In this document: piece by piece, positions 27,131 to 36,029 of the stretch
Numbering within the stretch: position 1 is the first letter of the stretch
Layout of the letters: the number at the start of each line of letters is the position of its first letter
Source of the DNA: Gemmatimonadota bacterium
GTDB taxonomy: Bacteria; Gemmatimonadota; Gemmatimonadetes; Gemmatimonadales; Gemmatimonadaceae
Direction: 5' to 3'
DNA length: 36,029 nucleotides
Assembly: GCA_003171215.1 (NCBI GenBank)
Contig: PMYN01000134.1
Span: 1 to 36,029 of the forward strand
The notes under the pieces: generated by a model
Databases searched by the model: none
What the model was told of the DNA's origin: nothing
Seen by the model: the letters and a program-made list of their open reading frames with translations, nothing else
Program-made: the position numbers and the translations under genes

Positions 27131-28081
27131 TGCAAGTCGTTGCAGTACACGTTCCGGCGCTACGTCGAGCCGTGCGATTTTACGGATTCTTTCAAGACGG
27201 GAGTAGTCTCGGTTTGTCAGGGCGTCGAGGACCTCGTCGATGGCTTTTAACATGTCGGCGTCCACTCCGATCTGCGTCCCGCGCACTCTCGCTCGCAGTG
27301 CTGAGAGCTGACGCACGCCGAGTAAGAAGTTCTCCTCGTATTTTCTCCACCAGGATTCAGGTGATCGAGCGATCTGAAGTGCGGTGTCCAAGGGCAGCTG
27401 ACTTCCAACCGCGTTTGCGGTATGCTGACGGTATGCAACTGTTGGCTCATCCAAGTAGATGATCGCTCCGAAGAGGGCTGCGCACTGGGCGAGCCACCAG
27501 TCGTGCATCACCACCTTCGGCATCGGCAATGCGTGTTTGAGGAGAGCTTGGTTGACAAGGGAGGCACAACCAGTCACTCTGTTTTGGAACAGAAGCTGGC
27601 GAGCGGTCCGCTTTTCCATCGACGGCAACCGTTGCCGACGTGCGAACGACGGATGCAGGAGACGCAGATCGAATTCGACGACACGGAGGTCGCTGTGAAT
27701 GAGCACCGGCATCTCTCGCCCGAATCGAACTTCGTGGTCGCAAAGAGCCGCCAGCATGCTGGTCGTCTTGTTTGGATACCAAACGTCGTCTTGATCGCAC
27801 GGAAAGACGTAGCTCTCGCCCACGCGTTGGCAGTGGGCGAGTAATTTGGCGAAGCTGGCTGACGGCCCTAGTCGCTGCCCGTCCGACGGCAAGATCGTGA
27901 TTCGCGGATCGGCGGTTGCCGCACTCCGGAGAATACCTAGCGTGTCGTCAGACGAACCGTCGTCGCGGACATACAATCTCCAGCGAGTAGCCGCTTGCTC
28001 CTGAAGACTGGACAGCTGAGCCGGCAGATGCTCTGCACCATTATAAGTTGCAAGTATTATCGCATGCGACGGGATCGCCAT
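27062..28081 (-). CDS. Glycosyltransferase family 2 (rhamnosyltransferase-like)
   Basis: 339 residues with a GT-A fold: HAIILATYNGAEHLPAQL, then YVRDDGSSDDTLGIL (DDGS/DD nucleotide-binding region), then VFPCDQDDVWYPNK with DQDD as the metal-binding DxD motif, and later VMHDWWLAQCAALFG. That arrangement, especially CDQDDVW and HDWW, is characteristic of rhamnosyl- and related transferases. The C-terminal ~90 residues are helical and charged. Starting at ATG 28081 it is divergent from the PglC-like gene with only 68 bases between starts. Its 3' end overlaps Wzy by 69 bases. Rhamnose as donor would fit the RmlD-like gene at 30965, but RmlA/B/C are not here. Confidence 0.88.
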   Translation of the reverse strand: MAIPSHAIILATYNGAEHLPAQLSSLQEQAATRWRLYVRDDGSSDDTLGILRSAATADPRITILPSDGQRLGPSASFAKLLAHCQRVGESYVFPCDQDDVWYPNKTTSMLAALCDHEVRFGREMPVLIHSDLRVVEFDLRLLHPSFARRQRLPSMEKRTARQLLFQNRVTGCASLVNQALLKHALPMPKVVMHDWWLAQCAALFGAIIYLDEPTVAYRQHTANAVGSQLPLDTALQIARSPESWWRKYEENFLLGVRQLSALRARVRGTQIGVDADMLKAIDEVLDALTNRDYSRLERIRKIARLDVAPERVLQRLALFFKVLLIADPVAPNGRIRGDD

Positions 28082-28149
28082 TGGCTCAGCAATTCTGCGA
28101 CGAGGCGCTCGCCGTCTGGTGCGTCTCGACTTGCGGGCAGCAATATTCG

Positions 28150-28809
28150 ATGACGTACGCTGGCAAGAGAACCGTTGATATCGTTGTGATTCTTGCCACT
28201 GCCGTGCTGTGGCTTCCGCTTCTGCTTGTAACGGGCATCTTCGTTCGGGTCTTCATGGGTGCGCCGATCTTATTCAAGCAACAACGAGTGGGTTTGAACG
28301 ATCGGTCATTCGAGTTGCTCAAATTTCGGACAATGACTGACCCACGCTCGGCGGACGGCCGAATGCTCCCCGACAGCCAGCGGTTATCTCGAATCGGTCG
28401 TGCGCTCCGGTCTTCATCGCTTGACGAGTTACCGCAACTCATCAACGTGCTTCGTGGGGAGATGAGCTTGGTAGGTCCGAGACCTCTGTTGCCGGAGTAC
28501 CTTGCATTGTACACCTCAGAGCACCGGCGGAGACACACGGTCCGTCCGGGATTGACTGGATTGGCCCAAGTATCCGGCCGCAACGCTTTATCGTGGCCTG
28601 ACCGTTTGGATCTGGATATTCGATATGTTGACACGTGCTCGATCTGGAACGACCTGACTATCTTAGTCCGAACGGTTGGAGTCGGTCTGCTTCACCGTGG
28701 CGTGGCTGAATCAGGGATGGCTACAATGACGCCCTTTGCGGGTTACGAGCCTCGGCGCCCAGACAGTTGCGAACGGAGTCGATCGTGCGATCCTGATCAG
28801 CGTCCGTGA
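28150..28809 (+). CDS. pglC: Small monotopic phosphoglycosyl transferase (PglC-like)
   Basis: Initiates repeat-unit assembly by moving a sugar-1-phosphate (diNAcBac-1-P in Campylobacter) to undecaprenyl phosphate. 219 residues. A single N-terminal membrane segment (IVVILATAVLWLPLLLVTGIF) is a re-entrant helix. Then QQRVGLNDRSFELLKFRTM, the catalytic Asp-Glu pair in [29 protein letters not shown] and the C-terminal RPGLTGLAQVSGRN are all family signatures. ATG 28150 is used: the frame is open upstream, but that part overlaps the divergent GT2 start and lacks family features. Its last 89 bases overlap the convergent PglE-like gene. The substrate is inferred from neighbouring PglE and PglD. Confidence 0.88.
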   Translation: MTYAGKRTVDIVVILATAVLWLPLLLVTGIFVRVFMGAPILFKQQRVGLNDRSFELLKFRTMTDPRSADGRMLPDSQRLSRIGRALRSSSLDELPQLINVLRGEMSLVGPRPLLPEYLALYTSEHRRRHTVRPGLTGLAQVSGRNALSWPDRLDLDIRYVDTCSIWNDLTILVRTVGVGLLHRGVAESGMATMTPFAGYEPRRPDSCERSRSCDPDQRP

Positions 28810-30964: not shown

Positions 30965-31885
30965 ATGAATCTCGCCAGGATTCCTGAGGAGAGGCGACCC
31001 TGCCTGCTCGTGCTCGGCGCTCGCGGCCAGGTAGGATGGGAATTGGTGCGCACGCTCGCCTCGCTCGGCGAGGTCCGAGCCCTCGATCATGCTTCTCTCG
31101 ATCTGACCGACACCGTCGCGATTCGTGCCGTCATCGGGGCCATCGCACCGGGAGTGATTATTAATGCTGCGGCGTATACGCAGGTTGACCGTGCAGAGAC
31201 GGAGCCGACTATCGCGCATCGGGTGAACGGCGATGCCCCGGGGATCCTCGCCGCGGAGGCCGCGCGCTCGGGCGCGCTCCTAATACACTACTCCACCGAC
31301 TACGTGTTCGATGGCACCGGCTCCCAGCCGTACACGGAGCGCGACTTGCCGGGACCACGCACTGTCTATGGCGCCTCCAAGCTTCGCGGCGACCAAGCGG
31401 TGCTGGAGAGAGGCGTCGAGGCTTACGTCTTCCGCGTCGGCTGGGTGTACGGCCGCCGCGGCAGGAACTTCCTCAACACAATTCAGCGACTGGCTCGCGA
31501 GCGGGAAGAGTTGAGTGTCGTTGGCGACCAGCACGGCGGACCGACTTGGTCGCGGGCTATCGCGCGCGCCACGGCGCGGGCTGTAGAGCTGTGGCTGCGG
31601 TCGCGACGCGACGGCTCGGCAGCTCCCGCACGCGGCATCTATCATATGGCGCCGCCAGACCACACTACTTGGCATGGCTTCGCGTCGGAAATTATTGACG
31701 CACTGCCAATGCCCGACGCGAGGAAGCGGCCTCAGGTCAAATCGATCTCATCGGTCGAGTATCCAACACTTGCCGTGCGCCCGGCTTGGTCCGTTCTAGA
31801 CGCGCGGTTGCTGCGAGAGGCCTTCGGGTTGCAGTTGCCGCCGTGGCGCACGCAACTCTCTCGATGCATGGGCGGCGGCGCGTGA
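30965..31885 (+). CDS. rmlD: dTDP-4-dehydrorhamnose reductase-like (RmlD)
   Basis: NADPH-dependent reductase of the extended SDR family, normally the last step to dTDP-L-rhamnose. 306 residues. The cofactor motif LVLGARGQVGWELVRTL is near residue 13, then LDLTDTVAIRAVI, NAAAYTQVDRAETEP, the substrate block HYSTDYVFDGTG, and YGASKLRGDQAV with the active-site Tyr/Lys; FRVGWVYGRRGRNFL and the late VRPAWSVLD are also typical. RmlA, RmlB and RmlC are not in the window, so rhamnose precursors must come from elsewhere or the enzyme reduces another 4-keto sugar. ATG 30965 is preferred to starts in the long upstream open frame. A strong hairpin follows at 31990. Confidence 0.85.
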   Translation: MNLARIPEERRPCLLVLGARGQVGWELVRTLASLGEVRALDHASLDLTDTVAIRAVIGAIAPGVIINAAAYTQVDRAETEPTIAHRVNGDAPGILAAEAARSGALLIHYSTDYVFDGTGSQPYTERDLPGPRTVYGASKLRGDQAVLERGVEAYVFRVGWVYGRRGRNFLNTIQRLAREREELSVVGDQHGGPTWSRAIARATARAVELWLRSRRDGSAAPARGIYHMAPPDHTTWHGFASEIIDALPMPDARKRPQVKSISSVEYPTLAVRPAWSVLDARLLREAFGLQLPPWRTQLSRCMGGGA

Positions 31886-31989
31886 GCTGGTACAGGATCC
31901 GACTTGGCGGTATTGCCGTTTCTTCAATCGCGTCCCGAGTAATCGCGAGCTTATTATCCAGACAGGCGCCGACCGATTTGTCGTCCGCT

Positions 31990-32033
31990 CTGCCCGCTGC
32001 AACCACCGTGCGCACGGTGCGCGCAGCGGGCAG
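31990..32033. repeat. 44-base nested palindrome (hairpin) downstream of rmlD
   Basis: Outer arms CTGCCCGCTGC (31990-32000) and GCAGCGGGCAG (32023-32033) are perfect 11-bp complements. Between them sits a second perfect palindrome, ACCGTGCGCACGGT (32005-32018), flanked by four-base bulges AACC and GCGC. It lies in noncoding DNA, 105 bases after the rmlD stop and 128 before the next gene. No T-run follows, so it could be a Rho-independent-like terminator without U-tail, an mRNA-stabilising hairpin or a REP-like element. Confidence 0.75.
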
Positions 32034-32160
32034 CCCGAGACATGCAGCATTTCGTATACCTTGTCAGCAATCTCCTGAGCTGCTCAATAGGACTCAAATG
32101 TTCGATTCTGGTGTTCGCACCAGACGCTTCTTTTCCCGAAGACTTCCCAACTGAGTAAGC

Positions 32161-34098
32161 ATGTCGTCTGCAAGAGTGCGTCTCGTCTACCTAGACACCT
32201 GTGTCGTCGGAACGGGTGTATTGTCGTTGATATTCCTTGGCATTCGCACATATCTTGGACGAGGTGCTGCTGCACGGGGGGCGCTACCTCTCGCTGCAGC
32301 CGTCTACGTCGTCTTTGCTATCGCTGTCACTTTCCGACGTCGGATACCGATGTCGAGAGCGATCATCAACCTACTGCGAGCCAGCTGCGTTGCCGCCAGC
32401 TGCGTTCTTGCGACCGCGGCGGTGATGCGCGCCTCCTCAGAAAGGCCAAGCGAGTACGGTTGGCCGCCGCACGTTCGCGAATTGTCCGGTGGGCTTCCCT
32501 GGCTCACCAGTCAGGAACGCGCAATCTGGACTCTGCGGCTCCTTGCCCACGCCGTAACGGCTCATCGGTCATCGCTAGCCTGGGGAGTCCTTCCGTCGGA
32601 CTGGCCGATACCCACGGGTGTCGAGGTGGCGATGGACTCGGTCGCCGACACGGTGCGCCTCTACGCGCGCGTCAAGCCGGACTCGCTCGAATGTGTTGAG
32701 CGCCTATTCCGAGGATCACTGCTGTCGTACGGCGCCGTTGCGGATTCGATCATTCGGTGCTTCCATGGCAACTCCACGACACGAGTTGTCTACCAGCGCA
32801 TCTTGCGTCGGAAGATGGCGCCGCTCGCGAACCAGGCGCGGATTACAGGAGCGCCTTGGAGTCAGTATCGAGGCGATGAGGTCAAGACTGCACGTGCGCC
32901 GGAGTTGTTCGAGTATTCGCGAGGCTTCAACATACACATAGGTGGATCCGTGCGTTCATCAATAGCGATTGTCGGCCACAACGCTATTGTTGGCACCCAC
33001 GGTACTGGCACCATCGTGAGCATCGACGTGCAAAAGGCCATGGTGGTCTGGCGCGCGACTGTACCGAACTGGGTGCATGAGGACGGGGTCTCGGACGGGC
33101 AGATAGTCGTTCTCGGATTCGGCGACAGTGGACCATCTTTTCGAACACGAGCGCCGGCCGGTGTCGCCGCTTACCGAGTTCGCGACGGCATTCTGCTGTG
33201 GTCGGCATTCGAATCCAATTCAGTCATGTCATCGCCAGTCATATCTGACGGGCGAGTAACTTACGCGACCGCGGGTGGGCTGGTGAAGATGAGGGAGTTG
33301 AATTCAGGCGAGCTAATTCATCAAACTCAGCTTCCCGGCGCGGTGGCAATGGCTCCGCCGGCCCTAATTGGCGCGACGCTCGTGTTCGGCGCTGGCAATG
33401 GTTGGGTTTGTGCGCTGGACGCCACCGATCTGTCGCGGCAATGGTGCAGCCGCCTCCCAGGTGTCGCAGAGACGGGTGTTGCCGGACCAGCCGTCTTTGA
33501 CACAGTCATCGTGCAATCAGCCGCTCAGATGCTCGATGTCTATCACCTCGGCACCCAAGCGGCTCAGGTCGGACCAGTGTTGCTCGGACGAATCGCGGCC
33601 GACATCATCGTGGGAAGATCGGAACGTCCTGTTGGCCAAATTATCTTTGGTGTGAGAGTACGAGATGGCAGTATTCTGTGGCGAGGATTGTCGCACCCCG
33701 CGCGGCGAATCGTGCTGGGGCACAACTCCGGAACGGCGACCGGGTCTCGCAGCATCGGTGTGGTTGTCCTTCCCATTCCTGACTTGGTCGTCGCCTTCAA
33801 TCCAGCGACTGGTACCGAAATCTGGCACGCCGAAGCCGACGGTTCGCGAGGCCCGCCGCTTGTGGTTGACAGTTCTGTGTACGTGTTCTCGGCAACAGGA
33901 TCTATTCGCGTCTTGCGCATTCGTGACGGCAGCACAGCCTGTACGTATAGGTCGAAATTCAAATTTGACCGTGCTGGTCCATCGCTGGCCGGGACGTTGC
34001 TGCTCGTGGGCACAATCTCCGGCGAGATATTCGGTATCCCTCGCAGTTTGATTGACAATTGCCGTTTAGACCAGCTCGATTTATTAATAGGGAAATGA
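32161..34098 (+). CDS. Membrane-anchored PQQ-type beta-propeller protein, function unknown
   Basis: 645 residues, not a known polysaccharide enzyme. Three hydrophobic N-terminal segments (about 11-32, 40-58 and 70-88) probably anchor it. A linker of ~130 residues (YGWPPHVRELSGGLPWL onwards) has no recognisable domain. From about residue 260 come repeated BamB/PQQ-like blades: VSIDVQKAMVVWRA, AAYRVRDGILLWSA, MRELNSGELIHQT, CALDATDLSRQWCS, VRVRDGSILWRG, VAFNPATGTEIWHAE and RVLRIRDGSTACTY, about seven in all. No PQQ-dehydrogenase catalytic residues are recognised, so it is more likely a periplasmic scaffold or sensor. ATG 32161 is the first start after the intergenic hairpin; no clear Shine-Dalgarno. 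Its place between rmlD and the initiating transferase suggests a polysaccharide role, unproven. Confidence 0.72.
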   Translation: MSSARVRLVYLDTCVVGTGVLSLIFLGIRTYLGRGAAARGALPLAAAVYVVFAIAVTFRRRIPMSRAIINLLRASCVAASCVLATAAVMRASSERPSEYGWPPHVRELSGGLPWLTSQERAIWTLRLLAHAVTAHRSSLAWGVLPSDWPIPTGVEVAMDSVADTVRLYARVKPDSLECVERLFRGSLLSYGAVADSIIRCFHGNSTTRVVYQRILRRKMAPLANQARITGAPWSQYRGDEVKTARAPELFEYSRGFNIHIGGSVRSSIAIVGHNAIVGTHGTGTIVSIDVQKAMVVWRATVPNWVHEDGVSDGQIVVLGFGDSGPSFRTRAPAGVAAYRVRDGILLWSAFESNSVMSSPVISDGRVTYATAGGLVKMRELNSGELIHQTQLPGAVAMAPPALIGATLVFGAGNGWVCALDATDLSRQWCSRLPGVAETGVAGPAVFDTVIVQSAAQMLDVYHLGTQAAQVGPVLLGRIAADIIVGRSERPVGQIIFGVRVRDGSILWRGLSHPARRIVLGHNSGTATGSRSIGVVVLPIPDLVVAFNPATGTEIWHAEADGSRGPPLVVDSSVYVFSATGSIRVLRIRDGSTACTYRSKFKFDRAGPSLAGTLLLVGTISGEIFGIPRSLIDNCRLDQLDLLIGK

Positions 34099-34241
34099 CC
34101 GTCAATGTGATTCTGTCTCTGAGACTTCGGTAGCTCCCGTGAGCGTGCAGCACATCCGCCCTCTGGACTGAGAGCCTGCGCGCTGACTCCACATAGCCAC
34201 GCGCCGCCCGAATTCGAGAACAAGCCGTACGGCGCGACTGA

Positions 34242-35315
34242 TCACCCGCCCGGCCTGACCACCGCACCCACCGTCCGCGCGAGCGCCGACGCGTCGCTCA
34301 GCAGCGTCCACCGCCGCACGTACGCCAGTTCGATGTCGCACCGCTCCGGATAGCCCACTCCGTGCCGGCCGCTCACCGCCCACGCGCCGGTGATGCCCGG
34401 CCGCACCGAGAGCAACAGGTCGCGTGCCGTGCCGTAGTGCTCGAGCTCTTCCTCCACCACCGGCCGCGGGCCAACCAGCGACATCTCGCCCACGAGCACG
34501 TTCCAGAGCTGCGGAAGCTCGTCCAGGCTCGTCCGCCGCACGAAGCGGCCCACGATCGTCACGCGCGGGTCTTGGTCGTCCGGAATCTTGTAGTGGTTGC
34601 GCCGGTACTCCTCGTACATTTCCGCGTCGGCGCGCAGAACCGCCTCCGCGTCGGAACTCATCGTCCTGAGCTTCAGGCACTGGAACTTGCGCCCGCTGCG
34701 CCCGATGCGCTCGTGCCTGAAGATCACCGCGCCCGGAGACTCCAGCCGAATGGCAACGGCAAGCAGAGCAAATAGCGGCGCGGTGACCAGCAGCCCTAGC
34801 GCCGAGCCCACCACATCGAGCGCGCGCTTGACCTGCACCTCCCAGCGCCGTCTCGGAATCCGCGCGAGCTGGACGAGCGGACTTTCACCGCTCCACACGA
34901 TCACCGGGTCGTGCCCCGCGAGCACCTCGGTGGGCATCACGGCGAGCAGCTCACAGTGGTGCAGCAGCGCGAGGTCGGCCACTCTGCGCATGGTGCCGAC
35001 ACCCACCGGCCCCGCCACGAGAATCGTCTCCGCCCGGTGTGCACCAAGCAACTCGGCGAGCTCTCTCACTCCCGCGTCCTGATCGTCCGATTCCACGTCC
35101 ACGGCGAGTGCAGCCACTACCTCGAATCGGCCGGCAATCGCAGCCGGATGCTGCAGTGCACGCGGGATGTCCTCCGGCGCACCCACAATTATGACGCGCC
35201 GGCATTCCGTTTCCGGAACGTCGGGCCACCTGGAACCAGTGTGGGAAATCTCACCCGTGCGAACGCGTTGAGGCGTTTTGCGAACTGGCTCGACAGGCGT
35301 CTTGCGCGGAGGCAT
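34242..35315 (-). CDS. Polyprenyl-phosphate glycosylphosphotransferase (WcaJ/WbaP-like, N-terminally short)
   Basis: 357 residues. Moves a hexose-1-phosphate to undecaprenyl phosphate. An N-terminal Rossmann-like regulatory domain ([36 protein letters not shown]) is followed by the membrane helix [20 protein letters not shown], then [21 protein letters not shown], the catalytic Asp-Glu of [29 protein letters not shown] and [13 protein letters not shown]. The four-helix N-terminal membrane bundle normal in this family is missing: ATG 35315 gives a soluble front. Upstream in-frame sequence (to a GTG at 35555) has no hydrophobic helices and overlaps the divergent export gene, so I reject it. It is the second initiating transferase in the window, beside the PglC-like one. 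Confidence 0.84.
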
Positions 35316-35373
35316 CCGGTCGCGGGTGAGGGTGAGCGACGATCTTCGGGAAGCTAAGTACGGCACCACGTAC

Positions 35374-35395
35374 GAGCAACCTTGGAGCAACCTTG
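35374..35395. repeat. Tandem 11-bp repeat in the divergent promoter region
   Basis: GAGCAACCTTG occurs twice head to tail (35374-35384 and 35385-35395), between the divergent initiating-transferase and export genes and 36 bases before the export ATG. The 11-base period is close to one DNA turn, so a protein could bind both copies on one face. No T-run. Confidence 0.6.
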
Positions 35396-35430
35396 CCGGA
35401 GCCACGGCACAGCGGTACCATCCCGATCCA

Positions 35431-36029
35431 ATGATACGTCTTTCTGCGCGGTCGCTGTCTGTGCTCGCCGTCACGCTGGCGCTCTGGATTCCGTCGGCTG
35501 CCATGGCGCAATTGCGCGCCGATCCGCAACGGGCTCCGCTCTCGCCCGGCGACAAGCTCCTGCTGAAAATATGGCTCGACTCGAGCTACGTGGACAGCGT
35601 GCGAATCGACCAGTCCACGCACGTGGTTCTGCCCCGGGTGGGCGTCATCTCGCTCGCTGGAATTCCCTCCGAGGCGATCGCGGACTCCGTTCGCTCCGCG
35701 TACAGCTCGGTGCTGAGGACGAAGTCGATCGAGGTCACTCCGCTTCGCCGCGTGGGAGTCGTCGGTGACGTGCGCAAACCGGATGTCTACTACATCGACC
35801 TCACCACCAACCTCCGCGACGCGATCGCGCTGGCCGGAGGGGTGGCTGAAATCGGCCGGCCGGACAACATCTCGATCATTCGAAATGGCCAGCAGACACG
35901 GGTCAAGGATTGGCAGGACGCGGCGTCGGTCTGGGCGCCGCTCCTCTCCGGCGATGAGATCCTCGTGGGCCGCCAGAGCTTCTTCGAGCGCAACGCCATC
36001 GCCGTGATCACGGGCATCAGCGTGCTCGC
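35431..36029 (+). CDS. Polysaccharide export protein (Wza-like, partial)
   Basis: I translated it by hand from ATG 35431: it runs open to the window end (199 codons plus two bases) and continues outside. A signal peptide is clear: MIRLSARS, a hydrophobic stretch SVLAVTLALWI, then PSAAMA before QLRAD, a signal-peptidase-I-like site; no lipobox cysteine is seen. The mature protein starts with the polysaccharide export domain (LSPGDKLLLKIW, VLPRVGVISLAGIPSEAI, VTPLRRVGVVGDVRKPDVY) and an SLBB-type segment (NLRDAIALAGGVAEIG). It should form the outer-membrane/periplasmic exit pore with the Wzz-like protein. It is divergent from the initiating transferase across a 115-base region holding the tandem repeat. 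Partial at the right edge. Confidence 0.88.
   Translation, partial: MIRLSARSLSVLAVTLALWIPSAAMAQLRADPQRAPLSPGDKLLLKIWLDSSYVDSVRIDQSTHVVLPRVGVISLAGIPSEAIADSVRSAYSSVLRTKSIEVTPLRRVGVVGDVRKPDVYYIDLTTNLRDAIALAGGVAEIGRPDNISIIRNGQQTRVKDWQDAASVWAPLLSGDEILVGRQSFFERNAIAVITGISVL

Follow-up and report, generated by a model that had tools for sequence, protein, structure and literature searches.

The window analyzed here (the whole 36,029-nucleotide stretch of DNA from a Gemmatimonadota bacterium) carries, in a polysaccharide locus, a gene whose product joins a membrane anchor to a β-propeller. The locus raises the question of what such a protein does: does it serve the adjoining polysaccharide machinery as a scaffold, sensor, or assembly factor for the export complex, as the original prediction proposed, or does it have a function of its own?

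Architecture of the Protein

The AlphaFold2 model of the 645-residue protein (8 sequences, mean pLDDT 74.1, pTM 0.75) consists of three helices, followed by a linker with a helix at residues 117-135 and a small sheet, and then the propeller (Table 1). Hydropathy likewise identified the three hydrophobic N-terminal segments that had been predicted, and the β-propeller expected after them was substantiated by the model and by a Pfam match to PQQ_2 (78.2 bits, cut-off 27.6). The propeller has eight blades according to both the strand list of the model and the blade alignment, and not the "about seven" counted initially. The linker had been described as unrecognized, and it is without a Pfam match even at an E-value of 10.

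Table 1. Features of the propeller gene and its upstream flank, in window coordinates.
Feature	Coordinates	Strand	Basis or remark
Terminator-like stem-loop between RmlD-type gene and propeller gene	32107..32124	+	Chance level not exceeded
Whole gene, 645 aa	32161..34098	+	ATG start, intact ORF
TM helix 1, residues 8-26	32182..32238	+	Hydropathy, AlphaFold2 model
TM helix 2, residues 40-58	32278..32334	+	Hydropathy, AlphaFold2 model
TM helix 3, residues 71-89	32371..32427	+	Hydropathy, AlphaFold2 model
Linker domain, residues 117-200, helix + small sheet	32509..32760	+	AlphaFold2 model
Invariant linker C178	32692-32694	+	Family alignment
Invariant linker C200	32758-32760	+	Family alignment
Eight-bladed propeller, residues 256-627	32926..34041	+	Pfam, model, fold matches, blade alignment
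Blade 1 ring residue R265	32953..32955	+	Blade alignment
Blade 2 ring residue H306, Met in TTH	33076..33078	+	Blade alignment
Blade 3 ring residue M356, Met in TTH	33226..33228	+	Blade alignment
Blade 4 ring residue M397, Met in TTH	33349..33351	+	Blade alignment
Invariant C417 and C429, presumed pair	33409..33447	+	Family alignment
Blade 5 ring residue V440, place of TTH Asp325	33478..33480	+	Blade alignment
Blade 5-6 insertion, residues 459-491	33535..33633	+	Low model confidence
Blade 6 ring residue H521	33721..33723	+	Blade alignment
Blade 7 ring residue R563, Arg in TTH	33847..33849	+	Blade alignment
Invariant C594 and C634, presumed pair	33940..34062	+	Family alignment
Blade 8 ring residue R604	33970..33972	+	Blade alignment

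Three N-terminal segments are present in all 10 family members with a complete anchored N-terminus (L067, whose N-terminus is cut at a contig end, was excluded from this count). In the same members the loop between segments 2 and 3 has one to five positive and zero negative charges, which fits an orientation with the N-terminus inside and the C-terminus outside the cytoplasm. The six cysteines of Table 1 are invariant in 11 of 11 members when L066 is set aside, a pattern that suits disulfides outside the cytoplasm, with these residues presumably pairing. The periplasmic placement originally predicted is consequently supported by the transmembrane (TM) segments, the positive loop, and the cysteines together, and we envisage that the three TM helices and a disulfide-bearing linker would hold the propeller outside the cytoplasm, on the outer side of the inner membrane.

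The linker itself appears to differ within the family. In the divergent pair L036 and L037 it resembles the heads of Gemmatimonadota type IV pilins (hhalign 93.5%, score 42.2, versus at most 14.5 in 150 column shuffles), unlike the linkers of the core members, the window protein included, which reached 0.2-0.3% against pilin heads in hhalign. The modeled TM helix 3 plus linker gave no fold match at an E-value of 0.001. A pilin identity for the window linker was dropped, as the profile and fold searches were negative, and derivation of the spacer from a pilin is plausible in L036 and L037 alone. Elsewhere in the window's own genome lies a tandem of three almost identical pilin genes (L075:212-1584, G000:C60).

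Family and Distribution

Relatives of the protein form a small and rare family that, within the searches made, occurs in Gemmatimonadota only. At an E-value of 1e-15, 6 of 179 genomes of the same taxonomic family had a match, counting the window's own genome and the remote relative L066, whereas the 17 other members of the genus had none; four copies are present in G392, a genome from the same order. Loci at which only part of the propeller matched (L003-L014, L019-L028, and L049-L060) do not enter the family counts, and L002 of the own genome, which matched query residues 42-120, was rejected as a beta-lactamase-family serine hydrolase with a chance hydrophobic match. The core members are 28-34% identical to the window protein, L036 24%, L037 21%, and L066 23%. 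The last (L066:10007-11386, minus strand) is a soluble single relative of 459 residues with a signal-peptide-like N-terminus, whose relatives among 288 genomes of the order are the anchored family only.

No homologs were found in plasmids by tblastn at 1e-5 or in viral contigs by pattern, and a search of genome contigs with a single protein gave no match; one strict peptide pattern found only two genomes among these contigs, those behind G392 and G407. These searches were limited, so that absence from outside the phylum is weakly tested. Among the open-licence papers listed by text searches, none describes this architecture, as judged by title or abstract start.

Copies occur in tandem at two loci, three in L032 and two in L034, and the end-to-start gene overlaps in the triplet (L032:3710-9740) and the pair (L034:8043-12084) are suggestive of translational coupling and diversification. 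Directly after the pair lies a gene without a Pfam match at 0.001 (L034:6637-8046, minus strand), whose product gives the impression of a secreted glycoside hydrolase. Two contig ends of one genome each carry part of the gene (L067:2-1666 and L068:1-793), and the parts overlap by 173 residues at 96% identity, representing either two copies or strain variation. A separate set of proteins of about 800 residues, 63-67% alike (L069:2903-5299, L072:2404-4782, and L073:7500-9884), consist of an N-terminal half of more than 400 residues followed by a half that contains a propeller.

Genomic Neighborhoods

That the window gene sits in a polysaccharide locus was confirmed: it has an RmlD-type gene on its upstream side and a sugar transferase on its downstream side, and the window also contains genes for Wzz, Wzy, a flippase, and glycosyltransferases. 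Among the family, only L037 shares so clear a setting, with an SLBB export gene and rml-type genes as neighbors. Within the genes scanned, which are a part of each neighborhood, L032 has two glycosyltransferases; L034 has PMT_2-type, UbiA-type, and family 2 glycosyltransferase genes; L033 has a sulfatase and a methyltransferase; and L035, L036, L066, and L067 have RecJ, a cytidylyltransferase-like protein, amidohydrolases, and acyltransferases among others. In an all-against-all comparison no neighbors were in common with the window beyond sugar-nucleotide enzymes and one weak match. As the relatives lie in mostly unrelated neighborhoods, a dedicated role in polysaccharide export is unsupported: the proposed factor for the export complex has no common export neighbor, and the supposed tie of the protein to polysaccharide loci largely failed, most relatives having been found outside clear polysaccharide loci. 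The polysaccharide genes beside it are probably incidental, and a weaker polysaccharide link is possible from the two loci, the window and L037, in which the gene is beside rmlD-type genes.

Within the window (30983-35504), GC content is 0.66-0.67 in the RmlD-type gene and in the last of the sugar transferases, against 0.56-0.60 in the propeller gene and seven other measured genes, marking a variable, possibly acquired stretch. The locus also has two polyprenyl-phosphate sugar transferases (28048-28809 and 34242-35555), one of which adjoins NeuD/PglD-type acetyltransferase and DegT-type aminotransferase genes.

A sulfur neighborhood was considered on account of a SoxA/TsdA-type cytochrome gene beside the L032 triplet. 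This lead was dropped because the domain is widespread (present in 150 of 177 related genomes), the cytochrome falls short of the SoxA cut-off (43.3 vs. 110), and such a neighbor is repeated at no other family locus.

A Ring of Eight Conserved Residues

The blade alignment revealed a register with one conserved residue on each blade, located three residues ahead of where the inner strand begins (Table 1). Seven of its eight columns show no variation among the 11 members; the remaining one, position 440 on blade 5, holds His in 10 of them and Val in the window protein. Conservation averages 0.99 here, against 0.77 at the best of the 33 other registers. When one column per blade was drawn at random, eight of eight was obtained in 0 of 200,000 trials, and a product estimate gives a chance of 2.9e-7, or ~1e-5 after allowing for 34 registers; these figures are only indicative, because the test followed sight of the pattern and the members are related. 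When 34 further propeller ORFs from the phylum were scanned with a rough pattern, Arg proved common at the same register (45 of 407 matches) and Met rare (4 of 407), so that the Met and His residues, and not Arg, are the telling members of the ring. These eight near-invariant residues, one per blade, are predicted to lie in a ring around the mouth of the central channel. The original reading recognized no quinoprotein catalytic residues; the ring alignment nonetheless points to a conserved pocket, other than that of quinoproteins.

The Pocket of Tetrathionate Hydrolase

Tetrathionate hydrolase (TTH) was the top Foldseek match of the propeller model (E 1.1e-26), and in VIA-align the window model matched it with a Z of 44.0 over 371-388 residues; the next matches, for the window model alone, were a designed propeller (Z 37.5) and BamB (Z 35.1). 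By sequence, the family profile scored BamB above TTH in the PDB. When aligned to a TTH fragment, the larger family alignments reached a probability of 98.4-99.6%, small family subsets and L066 one of 82.1-97.0%, and the window protein alone 12.4%, versus 97.8 and 84.4% for two control sets of unrelated propellers. Membership of the TTH family by sequence alone was rejected, since unrelated propellers of the phylum score similarly on this fragment.

The TTH residues could be placed on the ring. Asp325, located from the wild-type and D325N chains of TTH (chain position 296, offset 29), falls at the blade 5 register. Counted by eye, the ring methionines of blades 2, 3, and 4 (chain 143, 209, and 250) are Met172, Met238, and Met279, and blades 6, 7, and 8 have Phe, Arg, and Ile. 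The family residues H306, M356, and M397 occupy the three Met registers in 11 of 11 members (His allowed). For a Metallosphaera TTH (2025), PMC11818568 puts Met172, Met238, and Met279 close to the pocket, some relatives having His instead, and describes an Asp at the essential position and two Arg that touch the substrate in simulation; in our reading its residue numbers coincide with the A. ferrooxidans numbering. As to these two substrate contacts, R563 matches the blade 7 Arg of TTH, and it is doubtful whether Arg497 corresponds to blade 8. The D325N substitution is reported to abolish TTH activity (PMC10859504), and the essential Asp (or Glu) is absent from 11 of 11 members, 10 having His in its place and the window protein Val. 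The remote L066, whose ring residues are R, H, M, M, D, N, K, and V, keeps Asp at this register, and its best PDB sequence match is TTH. The family keeps the pocket layout of TTH without the catalytic acid; because this residue is absent, we suggest that the protein may work like TTH and do not claim membership.

Proposed Function

We propose that the protein is a membrane-anchored, extracytoplasmic, TTH-like pocket protein, acting as an enzyme or a binding protein, a reading for which we find belief and doubt evenly balanced. The ring would constitute a pocket for a small, probably anionic ligand, and we infer that it binds such a ligand here. The His-bearing members would be catalytic, and in the window copy catalysis would be altered or lost, so that this copy, with Val at the key position, may bind rather than cleave.

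The Val also bears on whether the whole family might be sensors or binding proteins, whose pocket takes up a periplasmic ligand without turnover while the TM part signals or sits near a transporter. The membrane anchor of every complete anchored member is in keeping with this, but a cytoplasmic signaling domain is absent, His is kept at the position in 10 of 11 members, and no regulator or transporter neighbor is repeated across loci; we consider such a role quite unlikely. That the ring Met and His bind copper or heme, in a redox or metal-handling protein, we regard as highly improbable. Invariant Met does occupy two positions of the ring and His three, PMC11818568 calls the methionines of the TTH pocket putative metal ligands, and the L032 triplet adjoins a cytochrome c gene. 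Set against these are the lack of a match to any metal-protein family, the three Arg, which suit an anion better, and the wide occurrence and unrepeated position of the cytochrome noted above.

An extension of the TTH-like pocket reading, very unlikely as a whole, would make the family a membrane-tethered TTH-like branch working at near-neutral pH, with His as general acid in place of the acidophiles' Asp and tetrathionate or another S-S or oxyanion substrate. In Gemmatimonadota, a soluble version with Asp would then exist beside anchored versions with His; tandem copies would be adapted to different substrates, and the window Val copy would be a specialized binder or inactive. TTH-like chemistry is described for acidophiles in PMC10859504 and PMC11818568, and other sulfur-oxidation genes are reported from Gemmatimonadota in PMC12345210. 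If the pocket reading is true, TTH-like chemistry extends from acidophiles to Gemmatimonadota, and eight residues are named for mutation. The PQQ-like or BamB-like label, which is all that family models give, hides an apparent active site. A false lead is also removed, as the gene may have no part in the polysaccharide machinery that it adjoins.

Comparison with Known Propeller Proteins

Membrane-bound quinoprotein dehydrogenases also have TM helices followed by a PQQ-type propeller, and PQQ-dependent dehydrogenases have PQQ-binding residues and an adjacent Cys-Cys pair. The window protein differs from these enzymes in scoring below the cut-offs for PQQ in Pfam (13.7 vs. 26.7 bits) and PQQ_enz_alc_DH in NCBIfam (15.6 vs. 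480), in agreement with the initial view that it belongs to no recognized quinoprotein family; its 645 residues contain no adjacent Cys-Cys.

BamB (YfgL) is, like the family, an eight-bladed PQQ_2-type propeller of the envelope with a good sequence match: it is the best NCBIfam match (53.6 bits) and leads the PDB sequence matches for the first half of the family profile. The protein could accordingly be a BamB-like scaffold, whose propeller docks proteins of an envelope complex and whose TM helices replace the lipid of BamB, and the rmlD-type genes that adjoin both the window gene and L037 would accord with this. We consider it unlikely, however: the NCBIfam score is far under the cut-off of 285.2, the fold match is weaker than that to TTH, and no conserved neighbor for docking was found. 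The most conserved residues form the channel-mouth ring, which BamB lacks, so that of the original scaffold reading a pure scaffold at least is disfavored.

The nearest solved fold to the family is the eight-bladed propeller of TTH, known from Acidithiobacillus ferrooxidans (6l8a/7cqy) and Metallosphaera cuprina. From this enzyme the family differs in its three TM helices, linker, and six cysteines, in the insertion after blade 5, which is shorter in TTH, in the replacement of Asp325 by His or Val, and in having loci without a sulfur neighborhood. The pocket register of TTH is nevertheless the ring register of the family, and the Met residues of blades 3 and 4 and the blade 7 Arg are common to both.
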